Below, piece by piece: positions 1,251 to 55,332 of a DNA stretch of 64,000 bases; positions within the stretch are counted from its first letter, which is position 1; the number at the start of each line of letters is the position of its first letter. Made by a program: the position numbers and the translations under genes. The notes beneath the pieces are model-generated. The model saw only the letters and a list, made by a program, of their open reading frames with translations. It was not told the origin of the DNA and searched no databases. The stretch is from the NCBI RefSeq assembly GCF_950295315.1, contig NC_080175.1:62228487-62292486 (forward strand), in the 5' to 3' direction. Origin of the DNA: Erinaceus europaeus (Eukaryota; Chordata; Mammalia; Eulipotyphla; Erinaceidae).

Positions 1251-3527
1251 CCAGTTTTGAAATCTTATATAACAAGGTATATGTTGTATATTGTGAGCGA
1301 GCAAATTCTCTGGCTCTTAACATTTAGTTTGGTGTGAAAACTCAAGCGATTTCTCTGTTTAGTTAGCAGTTATCTATCTGATTTTTGTATATTTTTGAGG
1401 CGCTTTATTGTCACAAAGGGAGTTTCACATTTTCTCAAGATAAGTGTCAAGTTACCCCACCCACTTTTAGGTTTTTAACAATAGCCTTGTAAGAAAAAAA
1501 AACACTTAACATATTACATATAAGTTTGGTTGATGTTCAAGATATTTCAAAGATCTGTCAGAATTTGTAGATTATTCATACAATGTGTGAAACTTTATTG
1601 CACAGTACTTACAACTTTATTCAAATTTATATTTTCCCTACAGAGTTTGGCAGGAAAAGTGAAAAAGTAAAACTAAATGGGAAATTTTAATAAAGCATGA
1701 ATATGGGCTAGAAGAGATAATTTTTGTGAACGGAGTTGGTGTTTAAAGGAAGCAGTATCATACACCAACAAGGCTATTACTTATTTTCATGTTTCTACTT
1801 GTCATGATTGTAGTTGTATAGTTATTCCTGTATTAAAATTGTTATTGACAAAAACGGGAATTACCTGTGGACTTAAAATATAGTCGAGTCATAAAATTAG
1901 TTACAAAAAGTAAAACAACATACGGAGCATTTTTCCTGAAAAACAGAAGATTTTTCTCTTATGTTTCAGCCCCTACAAAAGTTTGATTAGGAAAAGTAAT
2001 AGGTTAAGACATTTTTCTCTGAAGAATTCTTAGAGACAGCATGTGTTTTGGTGAAGGTAAGCAGCTTGTTTCTATTGAAATTCAAGTTCTAGTGAAATAT
2101 AATTACTAAGTGATCCTACTTAATGCATATCTTCCATTATTAACATCTGTAGCATATTAAACAAACAAAAAAATCCAAGAAGCCTACAAGATAAAAAAAA
2201 TGAATGACACCATACTGTTGATCATTGTTCTACATGGATACACTTTAATAAGCATAGTAATGCAAAATATGTATGCAAAACATACGTCAATGACACATAG
2301 CATTCTTCTGATAACATTAACTCACATTTTGCACAAAACTCAGGCACTATGTAAACTATTATACCAAAAACAATTTGCACCCCAGTCTACTTCAAATACA
2401 GTTCTCTACCACGTATTTAGAATCTCTGTGGAATAGCCTCAACCTTCCCCGTGTGTTGCAATAGTAACAAGACTTTTAAGATAGAAATACAGCTCATTGT
2501 TATTAATTATAATGGTCCCTATTATAGCATAGATCACTGTATAGCTAGCTATTTGATATGCACCATGCAATATCCATAGAAGAGTGGTGTTCACTAACCA
2601 ACCTCAGGAATTTCAGTCATGATGCTACTGTTGAAAATTCATCTTATCAGACATGGCATTGTGCCCAGTGCAAGTGAACCCAACTGAAAGTAAAATCACT
2701 TCAGAGCTCTCTCAACTCAAAGAGCCAATCATTTAGCTAGGAAGGTAGATTGAAAACAAAATACATGTCTACGAAATCAAAGCTTCTCTATTTATGAAGC
2801 TTTAAGTATTTAATAAATCCCTAAGTAATTAATTTCTTTCATTTATCAGAAAAGAGAAGTTTACATGATATGTGCAGAAATCTGTACATAAATTTAAACA
2901 ATTATTTCTAGTCTAATCATTTGGTGAAACTATATTACCCTAAAGAAAAAAGAACTCAATTATATTAAATATCAAAGTAAAAATGCCATATAGTGTTGTT
3001 TTGAAGACAAGGCACCCACACTCAGAATCTATAATTGTGGGTTGTTAAAATAAAATGTAGCTATTGAAAAGGAATCATTTCTAAGTGCATTCACCCTCAT
3101 TTCCAGTCAGAAAGCAAATAACTATTTCCAAGTTACATTGAACTGAATTTCCTACTAACAAGTATGATTATATATAACTCTATGAAAATTAATGTCCCAA
3201 TGAGAGCTCCAAAAATGATCTCCTCAAAAATAATATTGGCTCATTAAAATAAAGAATTACACATTAAATTCCAAGTTAAAACACTCACAGCATTAACACA
3301 AAAAGAGGCTGTAGTGCACTTATTATTTTTCCCTTTAAAGCATTTTGAAAAATACTTGAAAATATTTAGAAAAATTAGACCAGGGTCAAGAACACATTAA
3401 ATCTTATTTCAGGAGTATTTTAAGCAAACAAAACAAAACAAAAATTAGGAAAAATTCATATCATGGCTAGAAGACAACTCTTTTCATTGATATTTATTAT
3501 GATATATTAATTCCTTTTTCTTCTTTT
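1251..3527. other. AT-rich spacer, nothing recognised
   Basis: About 2.3 kb of AT-rich sequence with many stops in all frames. The only open frame here (2200-2436, 78 codons) has no family features and no splice or promoter context. No SINE or L1 diagnostic motif was found. Confidence 0.6.
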
Positions 3528-9387: not shown

Positions 9388-11461
9388 TTTTTATTATTTA
9401 AGAAAGGAGACATTAACAAAACCATAGAATAAGAGGGGTACAATTCCCATAACCCGATCTCCATATCCCATCCCCTCCCCTGATAGCCTTCCCATTCTCT
9501 ATCTGTCTGGGAGTGCGGATCCAGTGTCCTTGTGGGTTGCAGAGGATGGAAGGTCTGGCTTCTGTAATTGCTTCCCTGCTGAACATGGGGCATTGACTGG
9601 TTGATCCATACTCCCAGTCTGCCTCTCTCTTTCCCTAGTAGGGTGGGACTCTAAGGAAGAGGAGCTCCAGTACACACTGATGGGGTTGTCTGTCCAGGGA
9701 AGTCTGGTCAGCATCTTGCTGGCATGCGGAATCTGGTGGCTGAAAAGAGAGTTAACATATAAATCCAAACAAATTGTTGAACAATAATGGACCTAAAGAC
9801 TGGAATAGTGCAGATGAAATGTTGGGGGGTATTCCCTGCATGCTTTGGTGTACTTCTGCTTTCAGGTATATATTTTCCCCTAGTTTATGGGCACGTGTGA
9901 ACCTATGCTCTATCTCAGGGGACCTGGACTGTATCTAGGTTTGGTGATTTTATTGGGGAGTGGACCACCTGGAATGGAATTAGAGAATACTATGAAAGGA
10001 AAGGTCTCACCCGAATGATGAAGCTGTAGGGTTGTCATTCCACACCTGAAGTCTCTGGTCACAGTCTGAAGTGGAGCATGCTGGGGTGGCAGTCATTGCT
10101 TTGATTAGGTTGCAATCCGCGGATGCAGTATTATTTTATTTGAATTGAGAGCAGCATGCAGAAAAGTGGGCCCCACCCTAAGGTTCCAGGAGTGGGGGAA
10201 ATATAGGCTCTATAGTGGAAATGTGAGGTTCCTGTTGTCTTAGGGTTCAAGAAGACAATGGGTAGTTATTGTTATCATCACATTATTTGGTGATAGGGTT
10301 AACTTTGGAAAGTCCCTTTGTTAGGGTTTGGGGTATAATACCCAGCATCTTGTATATAGCTGTCCTACCAGTTGCTTCTGTTCTCCCTGGTCTAGGCTTT
10401 TGGGAGAGACAACATATCAAAGACAGCCTATGTATTAAAAAGACTCAGTCTGTGTTTTGAGAAGTTCTAGACATATGATCAATTTTTCCCCTCTCGTATT
10501 AATTAAATAGTGGTTTATATGTTTACACTTTAATAGGATTGTACATAAACACCACTCCCACCACCAAAAGACTGTGTCCCATCCCCGCCACCCCCTGCCC
10601 CCCCCCACCCCCGCCGTGCCGGGAAGCCCAATGGCCACCCTCCCCTTCACCACAGTGTTTTCACATTGGTGCCCTGCTCTCGATTTAATCAGATCCTGCT
10701 TTTAGTTTCCCTTTCTGTTCTTCTTTCTCAACTTCTGTTGATGAGTGGGGACATCCCATACTCATCTTTATCTTTCTGACTTAGCTGACTTAACATAATT
10801 CCTTCTAGCTCTGTCCAAGATGGGTCAGAGAAGGTGGGCTCATTGTTCTTAATAGCTGCATAGTATTCCATTGTGTATATGTACCACAGCTTTCTCAGCC
10901 ACTCATCTGCTGTTGGACACCTGGGTTGCTTCCAGGTTATAGCTATTATGAATTGTGCTGCTACGAACATAGGAGTACACACCTTTTTTTGGTTGGGTGT
11001 TATGTTGTCCTTGGGGTATAACCCCAGGAGAGGAATTACTGGGTCATATGGAAGGTCCATGTCTAGACTTGTGAGAGTTTTCCAGACTGCTCTTCACAGA
11101 GGCTGGACCAATTTACATTCCCACCAGCAGTGTAGAAGGGTTCCTCTATCCCCACAGCCTCTCCAACATTTGTTGCTGCTGTCCTTTTTGATGTATGTCA
11201 TTCTCACAGGAGTGAGGTTGTATCTCAATGTTGTCTTTATTTGCATTTCTCTGACAATAAGCGACCTGGAAAACTTTTTGATATGTTTGTTAGCCTTTTG
11301 GATCTTCTCTGAAGTGAATGTCTTGTTCATATCCTTTGCCTATTTTTGTATGGAATCATTTTCTTCTTTGGTGATAAGTTTGCTGAGTTCTTTATATATT
11401 TTGGTGATTAGTCTCTTGTCTGATGATTGGCATGTAAAGATCTTCTCCCATTCTGTAATAA
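9388..11461 (-). mobile_element. 5'-truncated L1, young lineage
   Basis: Reads on the minus strand from ORF2 (equivalent to about 53208 in the intact L1) through the 3' UTR to an A-tail seen as poly(T) near 9381-9392. 3' UTR landmarks match 54090-55270 of the intact copy, with a GC-rich C-run (10575-10620) absent there. The element is bounded by the 9067-9387 and 11462-11733 duplicates. Confidence 0.93.
10728..11457 (-). pseudogene. L1 ORF2 C-terminal fragment
   Basis: Minus-strand translation gives the L1 ORF2p C terminus: [18 protein letters not shown]ys-rich motif in the 11094-11330 frame, then [16 protein letters not shown]...TPMFVAAQFIIA and a terminal SPLINRS in the 10728-11060 frame. 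The two pieces lie in different frames, so at least one frameshift separates them near 11060-11094. The reverse transcriptase and endonuclease domains are missing through 5' truncation. Confidence 0.9.
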
Positions 11462-13108: not shown

Positions 13109-13301
13109 GAGTAAGAAGATCTGAAAGGGAAACTAAAAGCAGGACCTGACCAAGTTGTAAGTAGAGCACCAAAGTAAAAACAATGTGGTGAGGGGTAGAC
13201 ATGCAGCTTCCTGAGTCAGTAGGGGGTGGGTGTGGGTGAGAAGGATGGGTCAAAGTCTTTTGGTGGTGGGAATGGTGTTTATGTACACTCCTAGTCTTCT
13301 T

Positions 13302-13397
13302 CTAGCGTTTGCCCTTCTTCCGTAGCCAGTCAACAGCGTCAGGTTGAAAGCTGTCAGGAGCTGCTTGTTGCTGGCTTTGAAAGTGACTGGGATCCAT
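13302..13397 (-). CDS. 31-codon fused Vingi mini-ORF
   Basis: ATG at 13397-13395, TAG at 13304-13302. The last 15 or so codons (QPDAVDW then LRKKGKR) are in the same frame and nearly identical to the C terminus of the Vingi protein at 32708-33661. The first half (MDPSHFQSQQQAAPDS) comes from the retained 5' segment and is probably the N terminus of the Vingi ORF. The internal deletion therefore kept the frame. The ATG lies about 21 nt after the putative ribozyme. No domain is present; a product, if made, would be a short basic-ended peptide of unknown role. Confidence 0.45.
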   Translation of the reverse strand: MDPSHFQSQQQAAPDSFQPDAVDWLRKKGKR

Positions 13398-13418
13398 GTG
13401 GATTCAGTCGGCTAGGAA

Positions 13419-13488
13419 GGATCGTCAGTTTCCCCAATGAATAGGTACTCACGGGATGCACCACAAGAAGGTCAATCCAATGCATCCC
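13419..13488 (-). ncRNA. Candidate HDV-like self-cleaving ribozyme
   Basis: Minus strand from 13488. P1 is GGGATGC (13488-13482) with GCATCCC (13459-13453), 7 bp. J1/2 is ATT. P2 is GGATTG (13478-13473) with CGATCC (13424-13419), 6 bp including one G-U. P3 is ACC (13472-13470) with GGT (13462-13460), exactly 3 bp. L3 is TTCTTGT. The catalytic strand is CTGA at 13428-13425 (CNRA form), immediately before the P2 3' strand. P4 is weak (CCT/GGG around 13446-13433). Nucleotide 1 is the first base after the TSD, so predicted cleavage equals the element's 5' end. HDV-like ribozymes are known at 5' ends of R2, RTE and Ingi-clade (L1Tc/SIDER) elements. Fold made by eye; activity is not shown. Confidence 0.62.
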
Positions 13489-14139
13489 TACACTTCTAGT
13501 AAAATGTAGTCATATAAATCATTAATTAATTAATATTAGAGGGGGAAAATCAATTGTATGTCTCAAAGTTTTTCAAAACACAAACTGAATCTTTTTAATA
13601 TATAGGCTGTGTATTTGATATGCAGACTCTCTCAAAAGCCTAGACCAAGTAATTCAGAAGCAACCAATAGCACAGCTATATACAAGATACTGGGTACTGT
13701 ACAGCAAACACTAACAAAAGGACTTTTCAAAGTTAACCCAATTACCAAATAATGTGATGATAACATTAACTATAGATTGTCTTTTTGAACCCTAAGACAG
13801 CAGGAACCTCACATCTCCACTATAGAGCCTCTACTTCCCCCAGTCCTGGAACCCTTGAATAGGTCCCACTTTCCCGTATGCCTCTCCCAATCCATAATAA
13901 ATAATATTGCATCTGCCGATCACAACCTAACCAACGCAACGATTGCCACCTCAATATGCTTCACTTCAGACTGTGTCCAGAGACTTCACATGTGGAAAGA
14001 ATTATCTTTTTAAATTTTAATGATAATTAATTTATTTGCATTAAAATGTCACACATTTGTATTCTGACAGGAGATGCCACTGCCTGAAGGTACCAAGTTC
14101 CCCCTAACAGTTTACAGTTCTCATGCTTCCTTATGGGGT

Positions 14140-17737: not shown

Positions 17738-19338
17738 AGGTTCCCGGAAGATGGCGGACTGAGAAGCTGCTAGTGGCTTGAGCTCTGACCACATCTTCTG
17801 GAAATGGTAGGATTTTCTGCCTTTAGTAGGCCAGTCAATAAGGGGTCCTAGCGGTGACACCAAGGAAGTGACTATAACTTAATTTGGGTTAAAAAATAGA
17901 GTAGAAAAAATGGGAAAAAAATTTTTTGCTTTTAAATTCTTAAGCACACCTCCTCCACCATCTCCCCCCCATAACCAGTCACTGGGGACCAGTTCCTAGC
18001 AGGCTCCCCCACTGAGCTTCTTTCTTTACCAAGATTCCTGTCCTACCAGGAAGTATCATTCATTTTAAGTCTATACCCTTCTGAAACCTCTGGCCTCTTT
18101 TCATTCTAAGAAGCCAATCCCTCCACCTGACCCCGCATAGCTAATTAAATAATTAAAAATAAATAAATAAACTCTTTCCTTTCACCGCTCTTTTATGACT
18201 GTTCTTTTTCTTATATTTTTCCATTATCTCTCTCTCTCTCTTTTTTTTTTCTTTTTCTCATTCTTGTCATCCTTTCTTCCTTAATCCTACAGCATCCAAA
18301 GCCACAGGCCCCATCCTTCACACCACCAAACAGTGTGCTTTTTTGAATTCACTGATACACATTCGGGAATTATTTTGGGGAAGAATTCTGACTAAGAGTG
18401 GACTCTCACTGCGAGTATCTCTGCTCAACTTCCCTTCCTCCTTTAGCTACCTCTAGAATATACAGTGGATAGTAGATTTGCATAACTGACTATTTCAGCT
18501 ATCCTTGTCTAGTCCTGAAGTTTTTTTTTTTTTCTCTTTCTTAACAATCAGCTGCCTCTGATCACGAGGTTTGAGGTAATCTGGGACAGGGTTTTTTTTA
18601 CCCTGCTCTATTTTATTATTAATATTATATAAAGGCATATATCTTCCCCCCCTTTAGGTTGATCAGAATTAACTCTTAGGGTATCTTTCATTGCTAGGGT
18701 AGTGGGCATCTTATCTATTGTGGGAGGAACTTGTCTCGCTACTCCTACCTCCTCTACAGACTCTCCCCTCCCTCCTCCTCCTAGCTAATTAAAAAAATTA
18801 AACTAAAAATGAAGTAATCAATAAAAACAACTTTCCTTTCACTGCTCTTTAATTATAGCTCTTTTTATTATCTTTTATCTTTTCTCTCGTTTTTTTCTCT
18901 TTTTTTTTATCTTGTCATACACTTCTTCCTTCCTTCTTCTTTGCCTTTTTGAAGTTGTGAATTATTTTGGGGAATAAATCTGACTCAGAGTGGACTCTCT
19001 ATGTGTGTATCTCTGCTCTAGATCCCTTTTTCCTCTTGTTACCCCTAGAATATACAGTGGATAGTAGATTTTCATAAATGTCTATTATTGCTATCTCTTC
19101 TTTCTTTTCTCTTTCTTCTTCACTTGGATTTGGCTGCTACTTTTTCACGGACTGGAGAAATTGTTTGGCTACCTGGTAGTGATTAAACTGCTTCAATACT
19201 TGCTTCAGTTGCTATTGTAATTCCTGAGGTTGGTGAGTGCAATTGTCATAAAGGTATTTAGTATAGTGTTGCTTGTACTCAAGACACAACAACTGAGGAA
19301 CAACAGAGCATAAAAATAAGAAACACATTAATAAAAAA
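17738..19338 (+). promoter_or_regulatory. L1 5' UTR / internal promoter with tandem repeat
   Basis: Starts AGGTTCCCGGAAGATGGCGG; AAGATGGCG is a YY1-like site a few bases from the 5' end, the arrangement known for the human L1 promoter. The rest is CT-rich. Two diverged tandem units are visible: TTCACCGCTCTTTTATGACTG at 18182 and TTTCACTGCTCTTTAATTATAG at 18839; GAATTATTTTGGGGAAGAATTCTGAC at 18367 and GAATTATTTTGGGGAATAAATCTGAC at 18959. The period is about 590-650 bp. The intact L1 has one unit only. Confidence 0.8.
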
Positions 19339-20246
19339 ATGGATAGATCAAAAACAAATAAAACTGCTACTCCAATGAATGAAGACAAGAGCTCAGAAGA
19401 AACTAAAATCAGCCAGAAGTAACCATAGATAAGAAAAGTATGCAAGCAATAATAAACTTATTAATCACAGAAATGAAAACAACATTGGAGGAAAGGAATG
19501 ACAGTATTAAGGAAACAGCAGTTGACACCCCCAAGGAAAATACTGATTATCTTGAGGCAATTAGAGAACTGAAAGCTGAAATAGCTGTAAGGAAGAAAGA
19601 AGCTGAGGCAAGGGAAAGCAGACTAACAGAAGCAGAAAACAGTATTAGTAAGACAGAGGATGAGTTAGAGCAAACTAAGAAAGAGGTGAAAGAGCTCAAA
19701 ACAAGATTGAGAGACACTGAAAACAACAACAGAGATATATGGGATGATCTAAAAAGAAGTAAAATTTGTATAATTGGCCTGCCAGAGGAAGAAAGAGAGG
19801 AAGGGGAAGCAAACATTCTAGAGGAAATAATAGAAGAAAACTTCCCAAAGGACACAAAGGACATCAAGATTCAAGAGAGCCAGAGAGTACCAAACAGAAT
19901 CAACCCACACCTGAAGACACCAAGACACATCATAGTCAAAAGGAGAAGCAGTCAGGATAAAGAAAGGATCCTAAAGGCTGCAAGAGAGAAACAAAAAGTC
20001 ACATACAGGGGGAAACCCATAAGATTATCTGCAGACTTCTCCACTGAAACTCTAAAATCCAGAAGAGAATGGCAAGATATCTATCGAGCCCTGTATGAAA
20101 AAGGTTTTCAACCAAGGATAGTATATCCTACTACACTTTCATTCAAACTAGATGGAGGGATCAAAAAGTTCTTAGACAAACAACAGTTAAAGGAGGCAAC
20201 CATCACCAAACTGGCCCTGAAAGAGGTTCTAAAAGACCTCTTATAA
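19339..20246 (+). pseudogene. ORF1: L1 ORF1, frameshifted
   Basis: The usual start (MDRSKTNKTATPM) at 19339 runs into TAA after about 27 codons because one base is missing near 19405 relative to the copy at 49139. The remaining 268 codons are open from 19440: a coiled-coil region (ELKAEIAVRKKEAEARESRL through TEDELEQTKKEVKELKTRL), an RRM-like core (ICIIGLPEEEREEGE, then RIN-H--TPRHIIVK) and the C-terminal domain (TYRGKPIRLSADFS...LDKQQLKEATITKLALKEVLKDLL). There is a 2-residue in-frame loss near NFPKDTKDIK. The RNA-chaperone trimer protein could not be made from the normal start. Confidence 0.93.
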
Positions 20247-20306
20247 ACAAGAACATCACTATAATACTTGCAATATATCAGAGCAAACAAAAAGCTGTTT
20301 TGGGCA

Positions 20307-23300
20307 ATGGCACTACAATACATTAAATCCATAATATCAATAAACGTCAATGACTTAAACTCGCCCATCAAAAGGCACAGAGTTGGGGGATGGATCAGAA
20401 AACATAACCCAAGCATATGCTGTTTGCAAGAATCCCATATGTCACAACAAGATAAACACAGACTTAAAGTGAAAGGATGGAAAACTATCATACAGGCTAA
20501 CGGACCACAAAAAAGGGCAGGAACAGCCATTCTCATCTCAGACACAATAGATTTTAAATTAAATAAAGTAATAAAAGATAGGCAAGGACATTACATAATG
20601 ATTAGAGGATCAATCAGCCAAGAAGACTTAACAATTATTAACATCTATGCACCCAATGAGGGACCATCTAAACACGTCAAGCACTTACTGAAAGAATTTC
20701 AAAAATACATCAATAGTAATACAATAATAGTGGGAGACTTCAATACCCCACTCTCACACTTAGACAGATCAACAAAGCAGAGAACCAACAAAGATACAAG
20801 AGAATTGAATGAAGAGATTGACAGACTAGACCTCTTGGACATTTTCAGAGTCCTTCACCCCAAAATACTGGAATACACCTTCTTTTCAAATCCACTTAAG
20901 ACATACTCAAGGATAGACCACATGTTAGGCCACAAAGACAGCATCAATAAATTCAAGAGCATTGAAATCATCCCAAGTATCTTCTCAGACCACAGTGGAG
21001 TAAAACTAACATGTGACAACAAACAGAAAATTATTAAAAGTCACAAATTTGGAAATTAAACAACATACTCCTTAAGAACCACAGGGACAGAGACTTTCTC
21101 AAGCAGGAAATTCAAATTTTCCTGGAAACAAATGAAAAATGAAGACACAACCTATCAAAGTATTTGGGACACAGCTAAAGGAGTACTGAGAGGGAAACTT
21201 ATAGCCATACAATCACATATTAAACACCAAGAACAAGCTCAAATGAATGACCTTACTGCACACCTCAAGGACTAAGAGGAAGAAGAACAAAGGAACCCTA
21301 AAGCAACCAGAAGTACAGAAATCAATAAAGTTAGAGCAGAAATAAACCACATTGAAAATAAAAGAACCATACAAAAGATCAATGAAGCCAAATGTTGGTT
21401 CTTTGAAAGATTAAACAAAATTGACAAACCCCTAGCCAGACTCACCAAACAAAAAAGAGAGAAGACTCAAATTAATAGAATTGTAAACTATGGATGAGAT
21501 ATCACAACTGACACCACAGAAATCCAAAGAATCCTGTAAAATTTCTATAAAGAACTATACGCCAGCAAGCTAGAGAATCTGGAAGAAATGGAACAATTCC
21601 TAGAAGCATATGCCCTTCCAAAACTGAACCAAGAAGAACTACAAAATCTAAATGCACCAATCACAGACAAAGAAATTGAAACCATTATTAAAAATCTCCC
21701 CAACAACAAAAGTCCTGGACCAGATGGCTTCACAAACGAATTCTACCAAACTTTCAGGAAACAGTTAGTACCCATACTTCTTAAGCTTTTCCATAAGAGT
21801 GAAGAAACAGGATTACTCCCTTCCACCTTCTATGAAGCCAACATCACCCTGATACCAAAAGCTGATAGGGACAGAAAAAAAAAGGAAAACTACAGACCAG
21901 TATCGCTGATGAACATAGATGCCAAAATATTAAACAAGATCTTGGCCAACCGGATACAGCAACATATCAAAAAGATTGTTCATCACGACCAATTGGGATT
22001 CATCCCATGAATGTAAGCCTGGTTCAACATCCATAAGTCAATCAATGTCATTTACCACATCAATAAAAGCAAAGCCAAAAACCACATATTTATCTCAATA
22101 GATTCAGAGAAAGCCTTTGACAAAATCCAACACGCATTTATGCTCAAAACTCTACAGAAAATGGGAATAGATGGAAAATTTCTCAGATAGTGGAGTCTAT
22201 ATATAACAGACCTACTGCCAACATCATACTCAATGGACAGAAGCTGAAAGCATTCCCCCTCAGATCGGGGACTAGACAGGGCTGTCCACTGTCACCGTTA
22301 CTCTTCAAGATACTATTGGATATTCTTGCCATAGCAATCAGGCAAGCGAAAGAAATCAAAGGAATACAGATTGGAAGGGAAGAAGTCAAGCTCTCACTAT
22401 TTGCAGATGATATGATATTATACATAGAAAAACCTAAAGAATCCAGCAAAAAACCACTGGAAGTTATTAGGCAATATAGCAAGGTATCAGGCTACAAAAT
22501 CAATGAACAAAAATCAGTGGCATTTCTTTATGCAAACACTAAATCTGAATAAGACGTCCAGAAATCACTCCCATTTAATGTTTCAGCAAAATCAAATACC
22601 TAGGAATAAAGTTGACCAATGAAGTGAAAGACTTGTATGCTGAAAATATGAGTCGCTACTCAATGAAATAGTAACTGATACCAAGAAATGGAAAGATATC
22701 CCATGCTCATGGATTGGAAGAATAAATATCATCAAAATGGATATTCTCCCCAGAGCCATATACAAATTTAATGCAATACCCATCAAAGTTACACCAAGCT
22801 TCTTTAAGAGAACAGAACAAACACTACAATCATTTATCTGGAACCTGAAAACACCTAGAATTGCCAAAAACATCTTGAGGAAAGGATACAGAAATGGAGG
22901 CATCACACTCCCAGACCTTAAACTATATTATAAAGCCATCATCATCAAAACATCATGGAACTGGAACAAAAATAGGAACACAGACCAGGGGGACAGAATC
23001 GAAAGCCCAGAAATAAATCCCCACACCTATGGACATCTAATCTTTGATAAGGGGGCCCAAAGCATTAAATGGAGAAAGGAGACTCTCTTCAATAAATGGT
23101 GCTGGGAGCACTGGGTTGTAACATGAAGAATGAAATTGAACCACTTTATCTCATCAGAAACAAAAATCAACTAAAAATGGATCAAAGACCTAGATGTCAG
23201 ACCAGAAACAATCAAATACTTAGAGGAAAACATTGGTAGAACACTTTCCCACCTATACCTCAAGGACATCTTTGATGAATCAAACCCAGTTGCAAGGAAG

Positions 23301-24117
23301 ACTAAAGCAGAAACAAACCAGTGGGACTACATTAAATTGAAAAGCTTCTGCACATCCAAAGAAACTATTAAACAAACAAAGAGACGCCTCACAGAATGGG
23401 AGAAGTTCTTCATACGCCATACATGAGACGAGAAGCTAATCACCAAAATATATAAAGAGCTCAGCAAACTTAGCACCAAAAAAGCAAATGACCCTATCCA
23501 AAAATGGGCAGAGGATATGAACAAAACATTCACTACAGAGGAGATCCAAAAGGCTAACAAACAAATGAAAAACTGCTCTAGATCACTGATTGTCAGAGAA
23601 ATGCAAATTAAGACAACACTAAGATACCACCTCACTCCTGTAAGAATGGCATACATCAAAAAGGACAGCAGCAACAAATGCTAGAGAGGTTGTGGGGACA
23701 GAAGAACCCCTTTACATTGCTGGTGGGAATGTAGATTGGTACAGCCTCTGTGGAGAGCAGTCTGGAAAACTCTCAGAAGGCTAGACATGGACCTTCCATA
23801 TGATCCAGTAACTCCTCTCCTGGGGTTGTACCCCAAGGACTCCATATCACCCAACCAAAAAGAGGTGTGTACTTCTATGTTCATAGCAGCACAATTCATA
23901 ATAGCTAAAACCTGGAAGCAACCCAGTTGCCCAACAACAGATAAGTGGCTGAGAAAACTGGTATATATACACAATGGAATACTATGCAGCTATCAAGAAC
24001 AATGAACCCATCTTCTCTGACCCATCTTGGACAGAGCTAGAAGGAATTATGTTAAGTGAACTAAGTCAGAAAGATAAAGATGAGTATGGGATGATCCCAC
24101 TCATCAACAGAAGTTGA
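20307..24117 (+). pseudogene. ORF2: L1 ORF2, multiply broken
   Basis: Starts [11 protein letters not shown] at 20307. The endonuclease domain is readable to 21059 ([44 protein letters not shown]). It is then broken by a 1-bp loss near 21047, a 1-bp gain near 21136, in-frame stops near 21274, 21495, 21537, 22008 and 22014, a 1-bp loss near 22183, a stop and small deletion near 22550, and more beyond. RT landmarks remain ([30 protein letters not shown] at 22400-22411). The C-terminal Cys motif is split by a stop near 23680. Non-functional. Confidence 0.95.
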
Positions 24118-25462
24118 GTAAGAAGATCTGAAAGGGAAACTAAAAGCAGGACCTGACCAAATTATAAGTAGGGCACCAAAGTAAAAACCCTGTGGTGAGG
24201 GGTAGACATGCAGCTTCCTGGACCAGTGGGGGGTGGGAGTGGGTGGGAGGGATGGGCACACAGGTGGTGGAAATGGTGTTTATGTACACTCCTAGTAAAA
24301 TGTAATCATATAAATCACTAGTTAATTAATATGAGAGGGGGAAAATTAATTGTATGTCTCGAAGTTTTTCAAAACACAGACTGAGTCTTTTTAATATATA
24401 GGCTGTGTAATTGATATGCAGACTCTCTCAAAAGCCTAGACCAAGTAGATCAGAAGCAACCAATAGCACAGCTATATACAAGATACTGGGTACTGTACAG
24501 CAAACCATAAAAAAGGACTTTTCAAAGTTAACCCAATTACCAATTAATATAATGATAACATTAACTATCGATTGTCTTTTGGAACCCTAAGACAGCAGGA
24601 ACCTCACATCTCCACTATAGAGCCTCTACTTCCCCCAGTCCTGGAACCCTTGGGTAGGGCCCACTCTCCTATATGCCTCTCCCAATCCATATCAAATAAT
24701 ATTGCATCTGCTGATCACAACCTAACCAACGCAACGATTGCCACCTCAACATACTTCACTTCAGACTGTGTCCAGAGACTTCATGTGTGGAATGCCAACC
24801 CTTCAGCTTCATTACTCGGGTGAGACCTTTCCTTTCATAGTATACTCTAATTCTATCTTAGGTGGTTCACTTTCTAACAAAGTCCCAAAACCTAGATATA
24901 CACCAGTTTCTGTGAGAGATCATATGTTCACACGTATCCGTAAACTACTGCAAAATATATACCTGAAAGCAGAAGTACACTAGAGTTTGCAGTGAGTACC
25001 CCCCTAACACTTCCTCTCCACTATTCCAAGCTTTGGGTCCATGATTGCTCAACAATTTGTTTGGCTTTGTATGTTAAGTCTCTTTTCAGTCACCAGGTTC
25101 CAGATGTCATGAGGATGCTGGCCAGGCTTCCCTGGACTGAACACCCCACCAATTTGTCCTGGAGCTCAGCTTCCCCAGAGACACACCCTACTAGGGAAAG
25201 AGAGAGGCAGACTGGGATTATGGACCGACCAATCAACGCCCATGTTCAGCGGGGAAGCAATTACAGAAGCCAGACCTTCTACCTTCTGCAACCCACAATG
25301 ACCCTGGGTCCATGCTCCCAGAGGGATAGAGAATGGGAAAGTTATCAGGGGAGGGGGTGGGACATGGAGATTGGGTGGTGGCAATGGTTAGAGTTATACC
25401 CCTCCTACTCTATGGTTTTGTTAATTAATCCTTTTTTAAAGAAAAAAGAAAGAAAGAAAAAG
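24118..25462 (+). other. L1 3' UTR and A-rich tail
   Basis: About 1.35 kb, collinear with 53939-55290. It is the source sequence of the many 5'-truncated fragments in this window. Landmarks: GTTTATGTACACTCCTAGTAAAATG, CCTAAGACAGCAGGAACCTCACATC, TCCAGAGACTTCATGTGTGG, GGGAAGCAATTACAGAAGCCAGACC, TGTGGAGTTGTACCCCTCC-like end, then an A/G-rich tail. Confidence 0.9.
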
Positions 25463-25477
25463 AATATAGCATGCTTG

Positions 25478-26349: not shown

Positions 26350-26394
26350 CTATTCTTCTTCTTCTACGGTTTGCCCTTCTTCTGTAGCCAGTCA
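26350..26394 (-). mobile_element. Vingi 3'-terminal fragment
   Basis: TTCTTCTTCTACGGTTTGCCCTTCTTCTGTAGCCAGTCAACAG matches the 3' end of the Vingi copies at 13295 and 32697 for about 42 bp, including the GAA-type tail in reverse. Beyond 26394 the sequence is unrelated to those copies. It is either a severely 5'-truncated insertion or another deletion derivative whose 5' part I cannot recognise. No clear TSD. Confidence 0.8.
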
Positions 26395-27165
26395 ACAGAA
26401 CTGTTTGGCTATAAAGCTCACATGTTGACTGGATTTCTTCTCTTTTTTGTTTCTGAAGTGTCATTTATGAGGGTCAATTTCAATTGCATTAGATCACATG
26501 GGGAAAATAATTGGTAGTCAAAAGATCTTTGATATAAATCCTTTAGAAGATCTCATTTGAGTTCACACCTAGAGAAAAATTAGTTTTTTTCACTCAGGGT
26601 TACTACTGTCTCACTGACTAAATCCCATACATAATAATCAGTATGTGGATGTTTGCACATTAGAAAGTCATTTATATCCGTAATCTTAGAGATACTTACA
26701 TGATTTATAAATATAAAATGTAATAGCACATTGGAGGAACATCAAAATAAAACATTAAAAAGAAATAACATCACATATACATTAACATTTATATTAATAT
26801 ACAAAGGTTATATTTCTCATCTTAATGATTGTCATTATATGGAGAGCAAAAGATTTGGAGAGATACTCAAATCTTTTACTATTTTCAACAATAGTAACTT
26901 TGACTTCCAAAGACAAATTACAAATACTATTTTTATATTAATAGTGTCTTACTAAAGAATGGTTAAATTTAAGTAATAGCTATATAGTCCTCTGATGTAT
27001 TGAAATCCCTTACAAAGGTGTTTACTTCTATACTCTGGGTATTCCACTTGTTACAATGAAATCTTTGCCTTGATTTTTTCCTATAATGACCGTGTGCTTC
27101 TTTCAAGAAGATGAACTGAATTCAGGTAATTCCATTAGACTTAATAAGTCATATTTAATAGATAC
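26395..27165. other. AT-rich spacer
   Basis: Unassigned. Could include the 5' part of the Vingi derivative just before it. The 74-codon frame at 26731-26955 shows no family features. Confidence 0.45.
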
Positions 27166-31397: not shown

Positions 31398-31431
<34 letters not shown>

Positions 31432-32696: not shown

Positions 32697-33680
32697 TTCT
32701 TCTTCTTCTAGCGTTTGCCCTTCTTCCATAGCCAGTCAACAGCGTCAGGTTGAGCCTGATGTAAAGTTTCGAGACCTCCTTGGAATCTGGAGAGGTGGCA
32801 GTCGTTCACTATGTGGGTCATAGTCTGTCTGTAGCCGCAGGGGCAGTTCGGGTCGTCTCTGGCTCCACAGCGATGGAACATAGCGGCGCACCGGCCATGG
32901 CCTGTTCGATAGCAATTGAGGAGGGCCCAATCATAACGTGCTAGGTCAAATCCGAGTTGACGCTTGCAGGGGTCTATGATGAGGTGTTTGTTCTTTACCT
33001 CAGCTGACTGCCAACTCGGTTTCCAAGAGTCTGTTACAGAGAAGTTCAGTGTAGGCATAGGGGACCAGATTGGGTGACGAGATGTCAAGCGTTGGACAGG
33101 GTGGGCGAAGATATCCGCGTATATTGGCAGGTCCGGTCGAGCGTAGACGTGGGAAATGAACTTAGATGATGCCGCATCCCGACGAATATCTGGCAGGGCG
33201 ATGTTGCTAAGAACTGGCAGCCATGGAACCAGGGTGGAATGGATGGTTCCAGAAATTATCCTCATGGAGGAATATAATTTGGAATCGACCAAGTGGACAT
33301 GGGGGCTACGGAACCATACTGGGGCACAGTATTCTGCAGTGGAATAGCATAATGCCAAAGATGATGATCGTAGTGTGGAAGCGCTCGCGCCCCATGAGGA
33401 GCTGGCCAGTCTTGCAATGATGTTATTCCTCGCGCCCACCTTTGCTGAAGTTTTTATGAGATGTTTGTGAAATGATAGAGTGTGATCGAGAGTAACGCCA
33501 AGATAGACTGGCTGGGCTTCATGCCGGATTCTCATATCGCCACGCTGCACATTAAGCTCACGCGAGACTGAGGCATGGTGTAGATGGAAAACAGATGATA
33601 CCGTTTTTGCAGTGCTAGGGATTAGTCGCCATTTTTTACAGTAATCAGATATCAGAGACATGTCTTTAGTGTTTCCTCAA
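32697..33680 (-). pseudogene. Vingi retrotransposon, 3' half (RT C-terminal part)
   Basis: 5'-truncated non-LTR element of the jockey/Ingi/Vingi group. The minus-strand frame from 33661 to 32708 is open for 317 codons to its natural stop. Residues 1-60: end of RT (DYCKKWRLIPSTAKTVSSVF, then YLGVTLDHTLSFHKHL). About 75-140: thumb-like ALCYSTAEYCAPVW, MRIISGTIHSTLVPWLPVL. About 265-300: Cys-His motif CGARDDPNCPCGYRQTMTHI then C after four residues. It ends LWKKGKR, with no RNase H domain after the RT, as described for Vingi. A 1-bp loss just upstream of the first Met (near 33662) breaks the frame with the remaining few codons. The tail is (GAA)n-like. It sits inside an old minus-strand L1. Catalytic RT and endonuclease parts are absent, so not autonomous. 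Confidence 0.9.
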
Positions 33681-48225: not shown

Positions 48226-49138
48226 TTTCCCGGAAGATGGCGCCCGGAGAAGCAGAAGCGGTTAGCCTTTGAGCTCCGGACACATCTCGTGTAAACAATA
48301 GGATTTTCTGCCTTTAGCAGGCCATCCAATAAGGGGCCATAACGGTCATACCAAGGATGTTTCTATAACTTAATTTGGGTTAAGAATTAGAGTAGGGGAA
48401 AAAATTCTTTTTTCTTCCTTTTAATTTTCAAGCATACATCCTTCCCGCCGCCCCCCCTCCCCCCATAAGCAGTGCCTGGGACCAGCTACTAGCAGGATAC
48501 CCCATACCACCAAACAGGGTTTTTTTTTTTTTTTTTTTTTTTTTTTCCTTTTTCCTTTTTTTTTTTTTTAATTCACTGATACACATTTGGGAAGTTCCTC
48601 GCACTGCTCTTTAATTACAACTCTTCTTCCTATCTTCTCCCTTTTCTCTCTCTTATCTCTCTCAATCTCTCTCTTTTTTTTTCTTTTTTTTTTTTTTTTT
48701 TAATCTTGTCATACACTTCTTTCTTCTTTGCCTTTCTGAATTTCTGAATTACTTTGGGGAAGAAATCTGACCCAGAGTGGACTCTCTATGTGTGTATCTC
48801 TGCTCTAGTTCCCTTTACACTCTTGTTACCCTTAGAATATACACTGGATAGTAGATTTGCATAACTGTCTATTCTTGCTATCCTCTCTTCCTTTTCTCTT
48901 TCTTCACTGGGATTTGGTTACTATTTTTTCACGGACTGGAGAAATTGTTTGGCTAACTGGTAACGATTAAACTCCTTCAATACTTACTTCAGTTGCTACG
49001 GTTATTCCGGAGGTTGGTGAGTGCAATTGTCATAAAGGTATTTAGTACAGTGTTACTTGTGCTCAAAACACAACAACTGAGGAACAACAGAACATTAAAA
49101 AAAAAAAAAAAGAGAGAAACACATAAATTAAAAAAAAA
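48226..49138 (+). promoter_or_regulatory. Canonical L1 5' UTR / internal promoter
   Basis: AAGATGGCG (48233-48241) is a YY1-like site near the canonical 5' end. CT-rich with long T runs (48525-48546, 48669-48701). Relative to 17738-19338 two blocks are missing: about 320 bp after AGCAGGATACCCC (48500), and about 480 bp at CACATTTGGGAAG/TTCCTCGCACTGCTC (48595). The second fits recombination between the tandem units seen in the other copy. Confidence 0.8.
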
Positions 49139-50053
49139 ATGGGTAGATTAAAAACAAATAAAACTGCTACCCCAATGAATGAAGACAAGAGCCCAGAAGA
49201 AACCACAAATCAGTCAGAAGTAACCATAGATAAGAAAAGTATGCAAGCAATAATAAACTTATTAATCACAGAAATGAAAACAACATTGGAGGAAAGAAAT
49301 GGCAGTATTAGGGAAACAACAGTTGAGACCCCCAAGGAAAATACTGATTATCTTGAGACAATTAGAGAACTGAAAGCTGAAATAGCTGTAATGAAGAAAG
49401 AAGCTGAGGCAAGGGAAAGCAGACTAACAGAAGCAGAAAACAGAATTAGTCAGACAGAGGATGAGTTAGAGAAAACTAAGAAAGAGGTGAAAGAGCTTAA
49501 AAAGAGATTGAGAGACACTGAAAACAACAACAGAGACATATGGGATGATCTCAAAAGAAGTAACATTCGTATAATTGGCCTGCCAGAGGAAGAAAGAGAG
49601 GAAGGGGAAGCAAACATCCTAGAGGAAATAATACAAGAAAATTTCCCAGACCTGAATAACAGAAAGGATATCAAGGTGCAAGAGGCCCAGAGAGTACCAA
49701 ACAGAATCAACCCAGACCTGAAAACACCAAGACACATCATAGTCACAATGAGAAGAAGTAAGGATAAAGAAAGGATCCTAAAGGCTGCAAGAGAGAAACA
49801 AAAAGTCACATACAGGGGAAAACCCATAAGACTTTCTGCAGATTTTTCAACTCAAACTCTAAAAGCCAGAAGGGAGTGGCAAGATATCTATCGAGCCCTG
49901 AATGAAAAAGGGTTTCAACCAAGGATTATATATCCTGCTAGACTTTCATTCAAGCTAGATGGAGGGATCAAAACCTTCTTAGACAAACAACAGTTAAAGG
50001 AGGCAACTATCACCAAGCCGGCCCTGAAAGAGGTATTAAAAGACCTCTTATAA
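49139..50053 (+). CDS. ORF1: L1 ORF1 protein (RNA-binding trimeric chaperone)
   Basis: 304 residues, slightly shorter than human ORF1p (338). In the family this protein trimerises, coats L1 RNA and acts as a nucleic-acid chaperone in the cytoplasmic RNP. Seen here: Met-Gly-Arg start after an A-rich leader; short N-terminal region (about 1-50); coiled coil with Leu/Ile/Glu/Lys heptads (about 55-130); RRM-like domain (about 135-230) with IRIIGLPEEEREEGE and RVPNRINPDLKTPRHIIV; C-terminal domain (about 230-304) with KVTYRGKPIRLSADFSTQT and FQPRIIYPARLSFKLDGGI. The ATG at 49139 is the first in frame and has the same context as the decayed copy. Open throughout; ORF2 follows 60 bp later. Confidence 0.95.
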   Translation: MGRLKTNKTATPMNEDKSPEETTNQSEVTIDKKSMQAIINLLITEMKTTLEERNGSIRETTVETPKENTDYLETIRELKAEIAVMKKEAEARESRLTEAENRISQTEDELEKTKKEVKELKKRLRDTENNNRDIWDDLKRSNIRIIGLPEEEREEGEANILEEIIQENFPDLNNRKDIKVQEAQRVPNRINPDLKTPRHIIVTMRRSKDKERILKAAREKQKVTYRGKPIRLSADFSTQTLKARREWQDIYRALNEKGFQPRIIYPARLSFKLDGGIKTFLDKQQLKEATITKPALKEVLKDLL

Positions 50054-50113
50054 ACAAGAACATCACTATAATACTTGTAATATATCAGAGCAAACAAATT
50101 GTTTCTTAGAACA

Positions 50114-53100
50114 ATGGCACTACAATACATTAAATCCATAATATCAATAAATGTCAATGGCTTAAACTCACCCATCAAAAGGCACAGGGTGGGGGGATGG
50201 ATCAGAAAACATAACCCAACCATATGCTGCTTGCAAGAATCACATCTGTCACAACAAGATAAACACAGACTTAAAGTGAAAGGATGGAAAACTATCATAC
50301 AGGCTAACGGTCCACAAAAAAGGGCAGGAACAGCCATTCTCATCTCAGACACGATAGATTTTAAATTAAATAAAGTAATAAAAGATAGGCAAGGACATTA
50401 CATAATGATAAGAGGATCAATCAGCCAAGAAGACTTAACAATTATTAACATCTATGCACCCAACGAGGGACCATCTAAATACATTAAACACCTATTGAAA
50501 CAATTTCAAAAATACATCAATAGTAATACAATAATAGTGGGAGACTTCAATACCCCACTCTCACACTTAGACAGATCAACAAAGAAGAGAACCAATAAAG
50601 ATATAAGAGAATTGAATGAAGAGATTGACAGACTAGACCTCTTGGACATTTTCAGACTCCTCCACCCCAAAAAACTGGAATACACCTTCTTTTCAAATCC
50701 ACATAACACATACTCAAGGATAGACCACATGTTAGGCCACAAAGACAGCATCAATAAATTCAAGAGCATTGAAATCATCCCAAGTATCTTCTCAGACCAC
50801 AGTGGAGTAAAACTAACTTTTAACAACAAACGGAAAATTATTAAAAGACATAGAATTTGGAAACTAAACAACACGCTCCTTAAGAACCACTGGGTCAGAC
50901 ACTCACTCAAACAGGAAATTCAAATGTTCCTGGAAACTAATGAAAATGAAGACACAACCTATCAAAATATTTGGGACACAGCGAAAGCAGTACTGAGAGG
51001 GAAACTTATAGCTATACAATCACATATTAAACACCAAGAAGAAGCCCAAATGAACGAACTTACTACACACCTCAAGGACTTAGAGGAAGAGGAACAAAGG
51101 AACCCTAAAGCAACCAGAAGGACAGAAATCACTAAAGTTAGAGCAGAAATAAACAACATCGAAAATAAAAGAACCATACAAAAGATCAATGAAGCCAAAT
51201 GTTGGTTCTTTGAAAGATTAAACAAAATTGACAAACCCCTAGCCAGACTCACCAAACAAAAAAGAGAGAAGACTCAAATTAATAGAATTGTCAACGATAC
51301 AGGAGATATCACAACTGACACCACAGAAATCCAGAGAATTCTGCGAAACTTCTATAAAGAACTATATGCCACCAAGCTAGAGAATCTGGAAGAAATGGAA
51401 CAATTCCTAGAAACCTATGCACTTCCAAAACTGAACCAAGAAGAACTACAAAATCTAAATGCACCAATCACAGACAAAGAAATTGAAACCGTTATTAAGA
51501 ATCTCCCCAACAACAAAAGTCCTGGACCTGATGGCTTCACAAACGAATTCTACAAAACTTTCAGGAAACAGTTAATACCCATACTTCTTAAGCTATTCCA
51601 TAAGATTGAAGAAACAGGAATACTCCCTTCCACCTTTTATGAAGCCAACATCACCCTGATACCAAAAGCTGATAGGGACAGAACAAAAAAGGAAAACTAC
51701 AGACCAATATCTCTGATGAACATAGATGCCAAAATATTAAACAAGATCTTGGCCAACCGGATACAGCAACACATCAAAAAGATTGTTCATCATGACCAAG
51801 TGGGATTCATTCCAGGAATGCAAGGCTGGTTCAACATCCGTAAATCAATCAATGTCATTCATCACATCAATAAAAGCAAAGCCAAAAACCACATGATTAT
51901 CTCAATAGATGCAGAGAAAGCCTTTGACAAAATCCAACACCCATTCATGCTCAAAACTCTACAAAAAATGGGAATAGATGGGAAATTCCTCAAGATAGTG
52001 GAGTCTATATATAGCAAACCTACAGCCAACATCATACTCAATGGAGAGAAGCTGAAAGCATTCCCCCTCAGATCAGGGACTAGACAGGGCTGCCCACTGT
52101 CACCGTTACTCTTCAACATAGTATTGGAAGTTCTTGCCATAGCAATCAGGCAAGAGAAAGAAATCAAAGGGATACAGATTGGAAGGGAAGAAGTCAAGCT
52201 CTCACTATTTGCAGATGATATGATAGTATACATAGAAAGACCTAAAGAATCCAGTAGAAAATTACTGGAAGTTGTTAGGCAATATAGCAAGGTATCAGGC
52301 TACAAAATCAATGTACAAAAATCAGTGGCATTTCTTTATGCAAACACTAAATCTGAAGAAGAAGACATCCAGAAATCACTCCCATTCACTGTTTCAGCAA
52401 AATCAATCAAATACCTAGGAATAAAGTTGACCAAAGAAGTGAAAGACTTGTATGCTGAAAACTATGAGTCGCTACTCAAGGAGATAGAAACTGATACCAA
52501 GAAATGGAAAGATATCCCATGCTCATGGATTGGAAGAATAAATATCATCAAAATGAACATTCTCCCCAGAGCCATATACAAATTTAATGCAATACCCATC
52601 AAAGTTCCACCAAGCTTCTTTAAGAGAATAGAACAAACACTACAATCATTTATCTGGAACCTGAAAACACCTAGAATTGCCAAAACCATCTTGAGGAAAA
52701 GAAACAGAAATGGAGGCATCACACTCCCAGACCTTAAACTATATTATAAAGCCATCATCATCAAAACAGCATGGTACTGGAACAAAAATAGGCACACAGA
52801 CCAGTGGAACAGAATTGAAAGCCCAGAAGTAAATCCCAACACCTATGGGCATCTAATCTTTGATAAGGGGGCCCAAAGGATTAAATGGAAGAAGGAGGCT
52901 CTCTTCAATAAATGGTGCTGGGAAAACTGGGTTGAAACATGCAGAAGAATGAAATTGAACTACTTTATCTCACCAGAAACAAAAATCAACTCCAAATGGA
53001 TCAAAGACCTAGATGTCAGACCAGAAACAATCAAATACTTAGAGGAAAACATTGGTAAAACACTTTCCCATCTACACCTCAAGGATATCTTCGATGAATC

Positions 53101-53938
53101 AAACCCAATTGCAAGGAAGACCAAAGCAGAAACAAACCAATGGGACTACATCAAATTGAAAAGCTTCTGCACATCCAAAGAAACTATTAAACAAACAGAG
53201 AGACCCCTCACAGAATGGGAGAAGATCTTTACATGCCAGACATCAGACAAGAAACTAATCACCAAAATATATAAAGAGCTCAGCAAACTTAGCCACAAAA
53301 AAGCAAATGACCCCATCCAAAAATGGGCAGAGGAAATGAACAAAACACTCACCACAGAGGAGATCCAAAAGGCTAACAAACATATGAAAAACTGCTCTAG
53401 GTCACTGATTGTCAGAGAAATGCAAATTAAGACAACACTAAGATACCACCTCACTCCTGTAAGAATGGCATACATCAAAAAGGACAGCAGCAACAAATGC
53501 TGGAGAGGATGTGGGGACAGAGGAACCCTTTTACATTGCTGGTGGGAATGTAAATTGGTACAGCCTCTGTGGAGAGCAGTCTGGAAAACCCTCAGAAGGC
53601 TAGACATGGACCTTCCATATGACCCAATAATTCCTCTCCTGGGGTTATACCCCAAGGACTCCATAACACCCAACCAAAAAGAGGTGTGTACTCCTATGTT
53701 CATAGCAGCACAATTCATAATAGCTAAAACCTGGAAGCAACCCAGGTGCCCAACAACAGATGAATGGCTGAGAAAGCTGTGGTATATATACACAATGGAA
53801 TACTATGCAGCTATCAAGAACAATGAACTCACCTTCTCTGACCCATCTTGGACAGAGCTAGAAGGAATTATGTTAAGTGGACTAAGTCAGAAAGTTAAAG
53901 ATGAGTATGGGATGATCCCACTCATCAACAGAAGCTGA
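50114..53938 (+). CDS. ORF2: L1 ORF2 protein (endonuclease / reverse transcriptase)
   Basis: 1274 residues from [11 protein letters not shown]; an upstream in-frame ATG at 50099 would add 5. Human ORF2p is 1275, so this looks full length. In the family it nicks target DNA and primes reverse transcription in the nucleus. APE-type endonuclease (1-240): [71 protein letters not shown] (about 450-775): [71 protein letters not shown] with catalytic Asp pair at about 701-702. C-terminal Cys-His motif [18 protein letters not shown] (about 1133-1150). It ends PLINRS. I see no missing catalytic residue. Confidence 0.97.
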
Positions 53939-55286
53939 CTTAGAAGATTTGAAAGGGAAACTAAAAGCAGGACCTGATCAAATTGTAAGTAGGGCACCAA
54001 AGTAAAAACCCAGTGGTGAGGAGTAGACATGTAGCTTCCTGGGCCAGTGGGGGGTGGGAATGGGCGGGAGGGATGGGTCACGGTCCTTTGGTGATGGGAA
54101 TGGTGTTTATGTACACTCCTAGCAAAATGTAGTCATATAAATCAGTAGTTAATTAATATGAGAGGGGGAAATCAATTGTATGTCTCAAAGGTTCTCAAAA
54201 GACAAACTGAATCTTTTTAATAGATAGGCTACGTATTTGATATGCGGACTCTCTCAAAAGCCTAGACCAAGTAGATTAGAAGCTTCCAATAGCACAGCTA
54301 TATACAAGATACTGGGTACTGTACAGCAAACCATAACAAAGGGACTTTTCAAAGTTAACCCAATTAACAAATAATGTGTGGGTAATATTAACTATTGATT
54401 GTCTTTTTGAACCCTAAGACAGCAGGAACCTCACATCTTCACTATAGAGCCCCTACTTCCCCCAGTCCTGGCACCCTTGGATAGGGCTCACTTTCCCGTA
54501 TGCTTCTCCCATTCCATACCAAATAATATTGCATCCGCCGATCACAACCTAACCAAAGCAACGATTGCCATCTCAACATGCTTCACCTCAGAGTGTATCC
54601 AGAGACTTCACGTGTGGAGTGACAACCCTTCAGCTTCATTACTCGGGTGAGACCTTTCCTTTTATAGTACACTCTAATTTCATCTCAGGTAGTTCACTTT
54701 CTAACAAAGTCCCATAACCTAGACATATACCAGTTTCTGTGAGAGAGAGCGTATGTGCACACGTATCCATAAACTACTGCAAAATATATACCTGAAAGCA
54801 GCATTACACTAGAGTTTGCAGTGAGTACCTCCCCAACACTTCCTCTCCACTATTCCAATCTTGGGATCCATGTTTGCTCAACAAATTGATTGGCTTTGTA
54901 TGTTAACTCTCTTTTCAATCACCAGGTTCCAGATGCCACCAGGATGCTGGCTAGGCTTCCCTGGATTGAAGACCCCACCAATGTGTCCTGGAGCTCAGCT
55001 TCCCCAGAGACACACCTGACTAGGGAAAGAGAGAGGCAGACTGGGAGTATGGACCGACCAGTCAACACCCATGTTCAGCAGGGAAGCAATTACAGAAGCC
55101 AGACCTTCTACCTTCTGCAACCCTCAACGACCCTGGGTCCATGCTCCCAGAGGGCTAGAGAATGGGAAGGCTATCATGGGAGAGGGTGGGTTATGGGGAT
55201 TGGGTGGTGGGAATTGTGTGGAGTTGTACCCCTCCTACCTTATGCCTTTGTTCACTAATCCTTTCTTAAATTAAAAATTTAAATAA

Positions 55287-55289
<3 letters not shown>
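53939..55289 (+). other. L1 3' UTR
   Basis: Runs from the ORF2 stop through GGTGTTTATGTACACTCCTAGC, CCTAAGACAGCAGGAACCTC, GGGAAGCAATTACAGAAGCCAGACC to GTGTGGAGTTGTACCCCTCC and CTTTCTTAAATTAAAAATTTAAATAAATAA. AATAAA-like motifs sit just before the first poly(A). Confidence 0.92.

Positions 55290-55332
<43 letters not shown>

Follow-up and report, generated by a model that had tools for sequence, protein, structure and literature searches.

The minus strand of the 64,000-nt window (the whole stretch of contig NC_080175.1 of Erinaceus europaeus that was analysed) carries a short, internally deleted Vingi element, the features of which are listed in Table 1. A BLAST comparison with a 3082-nt autonomous copy from the same genome (L035) showed that the element consists of nt 1–149 of that copy fused to nt 3030–3082; position 13295 is common to the element and the 3′ target-site duplication. 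The host of the insertion is an L1 copy, and the empty site is intact in L1 copies of the window at 24285–24296 and 54112–54122, while a third, more diverged L1 copy with the empty site lies near 10534–10543. On the basis of these empty copies and of a 12-bp duplication abutting the first base of the element, G1 (ACTAGAAGTGTA, 13500..13489; ACTAGGAGTGTA, 13295..13284), the insertion junction was placed at G1. The base 3′ of the 3′ duplication is C, unlike G1, and the boundary is therefore not blurred by common letters. Position 1 had been claimed from the sequence to adjoin the target-site duplication, and the 12-bp duplication indeed ends exactly at G1.

Table 1. Features of the short Vingi element and of its predicted ribozyme in the window
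Feature	Position	Strand	Basis
Short internally deleted Vingi element, 193–194 nt	13296..13488	−	BLAST against autonomous copy L035; empty-site comparison
5′ target-site duplication ACTAGAAGTGTA	13489..13500	−	Empty-site comparison
3′ target-site duplication ACTAGGAGTGTA	13284..13295	−	Empty-site comparison
Predicted HDV-like ribozyme; predicted cleavage between 13489 and 13488	13419..13488	−	Descriptor; pairing in copies
P1 5′ strand GGGATGC	13482..13488	−	Descriptor
P1 3′ strand GCATCCC	13453..13459	−	Descriptor
P2 5′ strand GGATTG	13473..13478	−	Descriptor
P2 3′ strand CGATCC	13419..13424	−	Descriptor
P3 5′ strand ACC	13470..13472	−	Descriptor
P3 3′ strand GGT	13460..13462	−	Descriptor
L3 loop TTCTTGT; U20 and G25 (reverse wobble), C22 (P1.1 with G37)	13463..13469	−	Letter counts
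P4 hairpin, 4 bp, 5-nt loop	13433..13445	−	Folding; letter counts; pairing in copies
J4/2 CTGA, presumed catalytic C at element nt 61	13425..13428	−	Letter counts
ATG at element nt 92, first Met in autonomous copies, remnant here	13395..13397	−	Frame check

Elsewhere in the window, two stretches of about 6.6 kb each (18878–25464 and 48672–55296), which share 92% identity and a common orientation, appear L1-like by eye, and several further pieces related to them are present. The minus strand also holds three other Vingi 3′ ends (32701–33676, 55832–56174 and 26357–26398), the first of which has a 322-aa open frame; nt 1–141 of the element are absent from all three.

Read directly on the minus strand from 13488 to 13419 and parsed by script, the first 70 nt of the element consist, in order, of the P1 5′ strand, the trinucleotide ATT, the 5′ strands of P2 and P3, the L3 loop, the 3′ strands of P3 and P1, GTGAGTACCTATTCATTGGGGAAA, CTGA and the P2 3′ strand. 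The original prediction had described the pairing segments, L3 and CTGA as following the order of the HDV double pseudoknot, and every one of them was recovered by the parse where it had been placed. P1 forms 7 bp and P2 forms 6 bp including one G·U, and P3 is contiguous with the P1 3′ strand and has exactly the 3 bp that had been claimed for it, as is expected in the HDV-like ribozyme class. The 7-nt L3 loop, UUCUUGU in the RNA, contains the U and the G used for the reverse-wobble pair in HDV-like L3 loops, a feature that the earlier description did not include, and CTGA stands immediately 5′ of the P2 3′ strand. Accordingly, the features of the class that are present comprise the nested P1–P2–P3 arrangement with a P1 in the range of 6–7 bp, the 3-bp P3 flush with the P1 3′ strand, the L3 U and G and, by sequence alone, a C in J4/2 directly before the P2 3′ strand. 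The stem P4, named beforehand as a weak point of about 3–5 bp, has 4 bp in the window copy (CCTA/TGGG, including one U·G) and is separated from the presumed catalytic C by four nt (GAAA), a spacing that exceeds that in HDV. The 3-nt J1/2 and the 7-bp P1 agree with the excerpted description in PMC4908430, and the L3 U and G are as described in the excerpt of PMC3774820. At P1.1, which has one or two pairs in the class, C22 can pair with G37 in 34 of 39 distinct sequences and the second position places U opposite U, leaving one pair at most. The nested fold of minimum free energy extends P1 by ATT/GGT and GGA/TCC in place of P2 and P3.

We expressed the fold as a descriptor (P1 of 7 bp with at most one G·U, P2 of 5–7 bp, P3 of 3 bp, L3 of 6–9 nt and CNRA before the P2 3′ strand), in which CNRA is the motif around the catalytic C of HDV-like ribozymes. 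On the minus strand of the window the sole match is at 13488; on the plus strand there are two matching places, one in an AT repeat (31411–31415) and one at 61393, and the L3 letters are missing from both. When the window was shuffled twenty times with its dinucleotides preserved, 7 matches occurred in 1,280,000 positions, and none when L3 was required to have U1, Y3 and G6; these rates are only indicative, because the sequence was already known when the descriptor and the L3 rule were drawn up. When 116 fetched loci (558,286 bases) were scanned on both strands with two G·U pairs permitted in P1, 66 matches were obtained, 64 of which lie exactly at G1, and the other two are one base off (L062) and elsewhere in the locus (L091). 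Two loci (L029 and L081) were excluded from the descriptor scans; L051 represents the same place as L035, and L001 and L050 represent the window copy. In the 3082-nt autonomous copy, the single match on either strand is at nt 1. Among the fetched loci that start at nt 1–2, 64 of 85 satisfy the descriptor (49/56 short and 15/29 autonomous), that is, the strict fold is lost in 14 of the 29 autonomous 5′ ends. The fold had been claimed for the 5′ end of short derivatives as well, and by this descriptor it occurs in both autonomous and short copies.

A comparison with Rfam HDV models had been proposed as a check, and its outcome was divided. In a search of 141 bases of a single copy (L010) against all 4227 families, the HDV family RF00094 was matched over model positions 1–89 with 23.1 bits (E = 0.11). 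Ten of 20 loci matched this model (6/10 short and 4/10 autonomous); it also matched when L010 and L092 were searched, and L083, searched alongside them, gave no match. Every match begins two bases upstream of G1. Both printed alignments place G1 at the first P1 position and have P1, P3 and L3 in register. However, the scores of the matching copies, 21.7–26.6 bits, fall far below the gathering score of 50, and the family is therefore not filed under RF00094; moreover, the catalytic C of the model does not align to C61 in either printed alignment, in which the printed model is without P2 pairing, and the window copy itself gave no match to RF00094. A match of the CPEB3 family RF00622 to one locus (L089, E = 0.0075) vanished when that stretch was searched alone, and we gave it no weight because it was not repeatable.

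The core letters were counted in 75 copies and are nearly invariant: C61 and C22 in 75/75, U20, G63 and A64 in 74/75 each, and G25 in 70/75. All three non-CpG stem variants found in at least three copies preserve pairing through G·U, namely nt 4 A>G (6/33 autonomous copies), nt 35 C>T (22/37 autonomous) and nt 46 C>T (3/38 short). At the last position C is found in 35/38 short copies, giving a P4 of CCCA/TGGG. At CpG sites, nt 15 in P2 is C in 36/37 autonomous and 22/38 short copies, and its change to T in 16/38 short copies keeps a wobble pair, as does nt 65 C>T in 4/37 autonomous copies; nt 16 G>A and nt 66 G>A, each in 4/37 autonomous copies, break P2 pairs. For the analysis of covariation, the 86 copies with a start at nt 1–2 were reduced to an alignment of 46 (the 40 omitted were all short), which gave 39 distinct rows. 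In these rows 96.1% of the paired cells could pair, compared with 30–48% when the partners were slid, and P4 was paired in 100% of cells. In none of the pairs had both sides changed in a compensatory manner among the 39 distinct sequences, the mean column identity of which is 96%, and shuffled partners performed slightly better than the real ones (96.3 versus 96.1% paired; covariation 0.070 versus 0.068). The copies thus fit the fold, but variation within so young a family is no test of it, and covariation neither supports nor refutes the fold.

To locate the 5′ ends of the family, the genome (2.72 Gb, 1172 contigs) was searched and the best-scoring places only were taken. A 189-nt query yielded 1353 candidates (best 40 scored), an autonomous query of nt 151–651 yielded 2077 (best 40 scored) and a C-terminal protein query yielded 42332 (best 124 scored), candidate numbers that are not copy numbers; a DNA query from the 3′ half yielded no candidates in a search that passes over very common words. 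We assembled 44 autonomous loci, of which 39 came from the ribozyme-free query (nt 151–651) and five from long-ORF loci, all matching the 5′ region. Starts of these loci were distributed over nt 1 (23 loci), nt 2 (6), nt 3 (2), nt 4 (2) and nt 5 (4), so that 37/44 begin within the first 5 nt, and the remaining 7/44 begin at nt 16–136 (L060, L080, L030, L031, L059, L079 and L091) and therefore cannot have an intact ribozyme. The outcome that was to count against the prediction, most copies starting elsewhere, is not what these loci display. Outside the 44 loci are 15 of 20 long-ORF loci without a match to the first 140 nt, one of which is apparently the same as a stray start at nt 175 that was grouped among the short copies. 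Starts at nt 5 (TGC..., in five copies, L024, L054, L067, L070 and L076) are commoner than those at nt 3 or nt 4, perhaps because a certain microhomology is favoured or because the element has a second end point.

The short copies, with the window copy set aside, start at nt 1 in 52 of 57, at nt 2 in four and at nt 5 in one, although they keep the 5′ end by construction, since they were drawn with ribozyme-containing queries. Their flanks were examined for a duplication of 9–16 bp ending at the first matched base, which was present in 41/58 short copies compared with 40/5000 mispaired flanks. When the boundary was moved into the element, the number of duplications in the short copies fell to 34 (+1), 11 (+2) and 9 (+3), and when it was moved outward the number was 44 (−1), 44 (−2) and 39 (−3), as is expected while it still lies within the duplication; with one mismatch permitted, the boundary is accurate to about one base. 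Four deletion types were observed among the short copies, in a survey whose query demands the 5′ end, and the minimum kept is the sequence up to nt 117 together with the last 39 nt.

In five of six autonomous copies the frame is open from nt 86 with its first Met at nt 92, and in the sixth the long frame is shifted. The first Met of the ORF thus follows shortly after the last base of the predicted ribozyme (nt 70), and the 91-nt 5′ UTR therefore consists mostly of the ribozyme. The protein of the 3082-nt copy has endonuclease and reverse transcriptase domains and no RNase H match; PF14529 and PF00078 were the sole Pfam matches at E 0.001 in its 859-aa frame, which begins inside the endonuclease. 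Vingi elements are not known to have RNase H. We take the clade to be Vingi on the strength of the original prediction and of an excerpt of PMC5753468. Among the candidates scored, the protein had 855 homologues at E 0.001, and among the 120 of these that were listed the best is 96% identical and the next 58%. No relatives were found in viral contigs by single-protein and alignment scans. A scan of genome contigs gave one LINE-bearing contig (L081, CAJXNF010000406.1), in which the match begins at query residue 112, 439 nt into the contig, and a 5′ UTR is therefore unlikely there. This contig is filed under a bacterial MAG and encodes a relative of the Vingi protein, 39% identical in the best segment, and is therefore probably a contaminant of animal origin.

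We consider it likely that the first 70 nt of the Vingi family constitute an HDV-like self-cleaving ribozyme; by fold and placement it belongs to this class, and it is probably active. Several observations count against this reading, namely the short P4, the single P1.1 pair at most, the competing nested hairpin, the RF00094 scores below threshold, the lack of compensatory change and the loss of the strict fold in 14/29 autonomous 5′ ends. Most of these would also be expected if an HDV-like ribozyme used by an ancestor of this Vingi were now inactive or very slow, with the fold persisting through the youth of the family, through translation or through protein binding. The long J4/2 fits such decay together with the short P4, the one P1.1 pair, the competing fold, the low RF00094 scores and the autonomous 5′ ends that fail the descriptor, and some relatives of L1Tc/ingi are reported to have lost function (PMC4035085, as excerpted). 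Against decay, starts at G1 are frequent in autonomous and short elements alike, the core letters are near-invariant and the three common non-CpG stem variants still pair, and we regard this explanation as unlikely.

It is also conceivable that the 5′ UTR merely forms a stem-loop without cleavage, that an internal promoter starts transcription at G1 and that the paired segments serve translation or binding of the reverse transcriptase. The 91-nt 5′ UTR is mostly structured, and a promoter here is possible because the 77-nt region of L1Tc is both promoter and ribozyme (PMC8256844, in the part of the text drawn on). Three A-box-like places with one mismatch each and one loose B-box-like place occur in the short element, but a search of it for the full B-box consensus with up to one mismatch gave no match. 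Furthermore, a plain stem-loop would not require the L3 letters and CNRA to occur together with P2 and with a 3-bp P3 that directly adjoins the P1 3′ strand, a combination found by shuffling in only 7 of 1.28 million positions without the L3 rule and in none with it; this explanation therefore appears very improbable. That the pairing arose by chance at the 5′ end of a repeat is scarcely credible, in spite of the lack of covariation and of a descriptor fixed after the sequence was seen, given the low shuffle rates, the 64 of 66 matches exactly at G1 and the independently built RF00094, which puts P1, P3 and L3 in the same register.

If the ribozyme reading is correct, we infer that the element is copied within a longer transcript starting upstream, in which the nascent RNA would adopt the nested double pseudoknot and cut itself just 5′ of G1 by means of the C of CTGA. 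The released RNA would then start at G1, the AUG at nt 92 would be used for translation, and the RNA beginning with G1 would serve as the template for reverse transcription at a new site. Since the cut falls on the 5′ side of the ribozyme, every full-length copy would inherit the ribozyme. Short derivatives composed of the ribozyme and the 3′ tail may be mobilised in trans, and would in this way obtain a defined 5′ end while lacking their own promoter.

Processing of 5′ ends by HDV-like ribozymes has been published for R2 and L1Tc (PMC3774820, PMC4035085 and PMC8256844; these and the other papers compared here are cited as excerpted). A close parallel is Pr77 of the trypanosomatid L1Tc/ingi elements. 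In these non-LTR elements the 5′ end is formed by an HDV-like ribozyme of about 77 nt, which also occurs in the short relatives SIDER and NARTco and for which the cut is expected 5′ of nt 1; in contrast to the predicted cleavage of Vingi, that of Pr77 was demonstrated in vitro, and the host and the element differ (PMC4035085). The R2 ribozyme is likewise HDV-like, acts on a co-transcript to process the 5′ end of its non-LTR element and has the L3 G in a reverse wobble with U (PMC3774820). However, R2 is site-specific in 28S rDNA and described as absent from mammals (PMC5753468), and in many R2 elements the cut lies upstream of the element, whereas it is predicted at nt 1 in Vingi. The CPEB3 ribozyme (RF00622) is both HDV-like and mammalian, although it resides in an intron of one gene (PMC8256844). 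Human LINE-1 is a mammalian retrotransposon whose 5′ UTR contains a self-cleaving RNA, a twister-sister-like ribozyme, but this ribozyme belongs to another class and was found by selection from human DNA; most of its primate LINE-1 homologues seem inactive (PMC11620745).

HDV-like ribozymes have been described in retrotransposon 5′ UTRs of insects, other arthropods, nematodes, birds and tunicates (PMC11620745) and in retrotransposons of trypanosomatids (PMC4035085), and the mammalian ones have been placed in CPEB3 (PMC4908430). We found no report of an HDV-like ribozyme in a mammalian retrotransposon or in Vingi among the titles and the beginnings of abstracts of the open-access literature. 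The claim of novelty made earlier thus stands for the HDV-like class within the literature searched, but not for ribozymes of any kind, and we narrowed it to that class because the human LINE-1 ribozyme is in print and contradicts a first ribozyme in any mammalian retrotransposon (PMC11620745). Within these limits, the predicted HDV-like ribozyme would be new to this host group and to this element clade.

The broader picture would be that of a mammal with a large population of HDV-like ribozymes, with a Vingi LINE as one vehicle of their spread and its short derivatives as the other; these derivatives would lack a promoter and have no working parts beyond the ribozyme and the 3′ tail. In this picture the ribozyme takes the place of a promoter in setting the 5′ end, and sense insertions are able to cut host transcripts; we judge it about as probable as its opposite. 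If true, the ribozyme would explain the exact front end of the element. A young mammalian family would supply many near-identical natural variants for understanding how a ribozyme sets the 5′ end of a LINE. It could also help to show whether host transcripts are cut by insertions of this kind, and by what means short elements may persist in the absence of a Pol III promoter. The finding is also relevant to whether the device came down to Ingi and Vingi from a shared ancestor.
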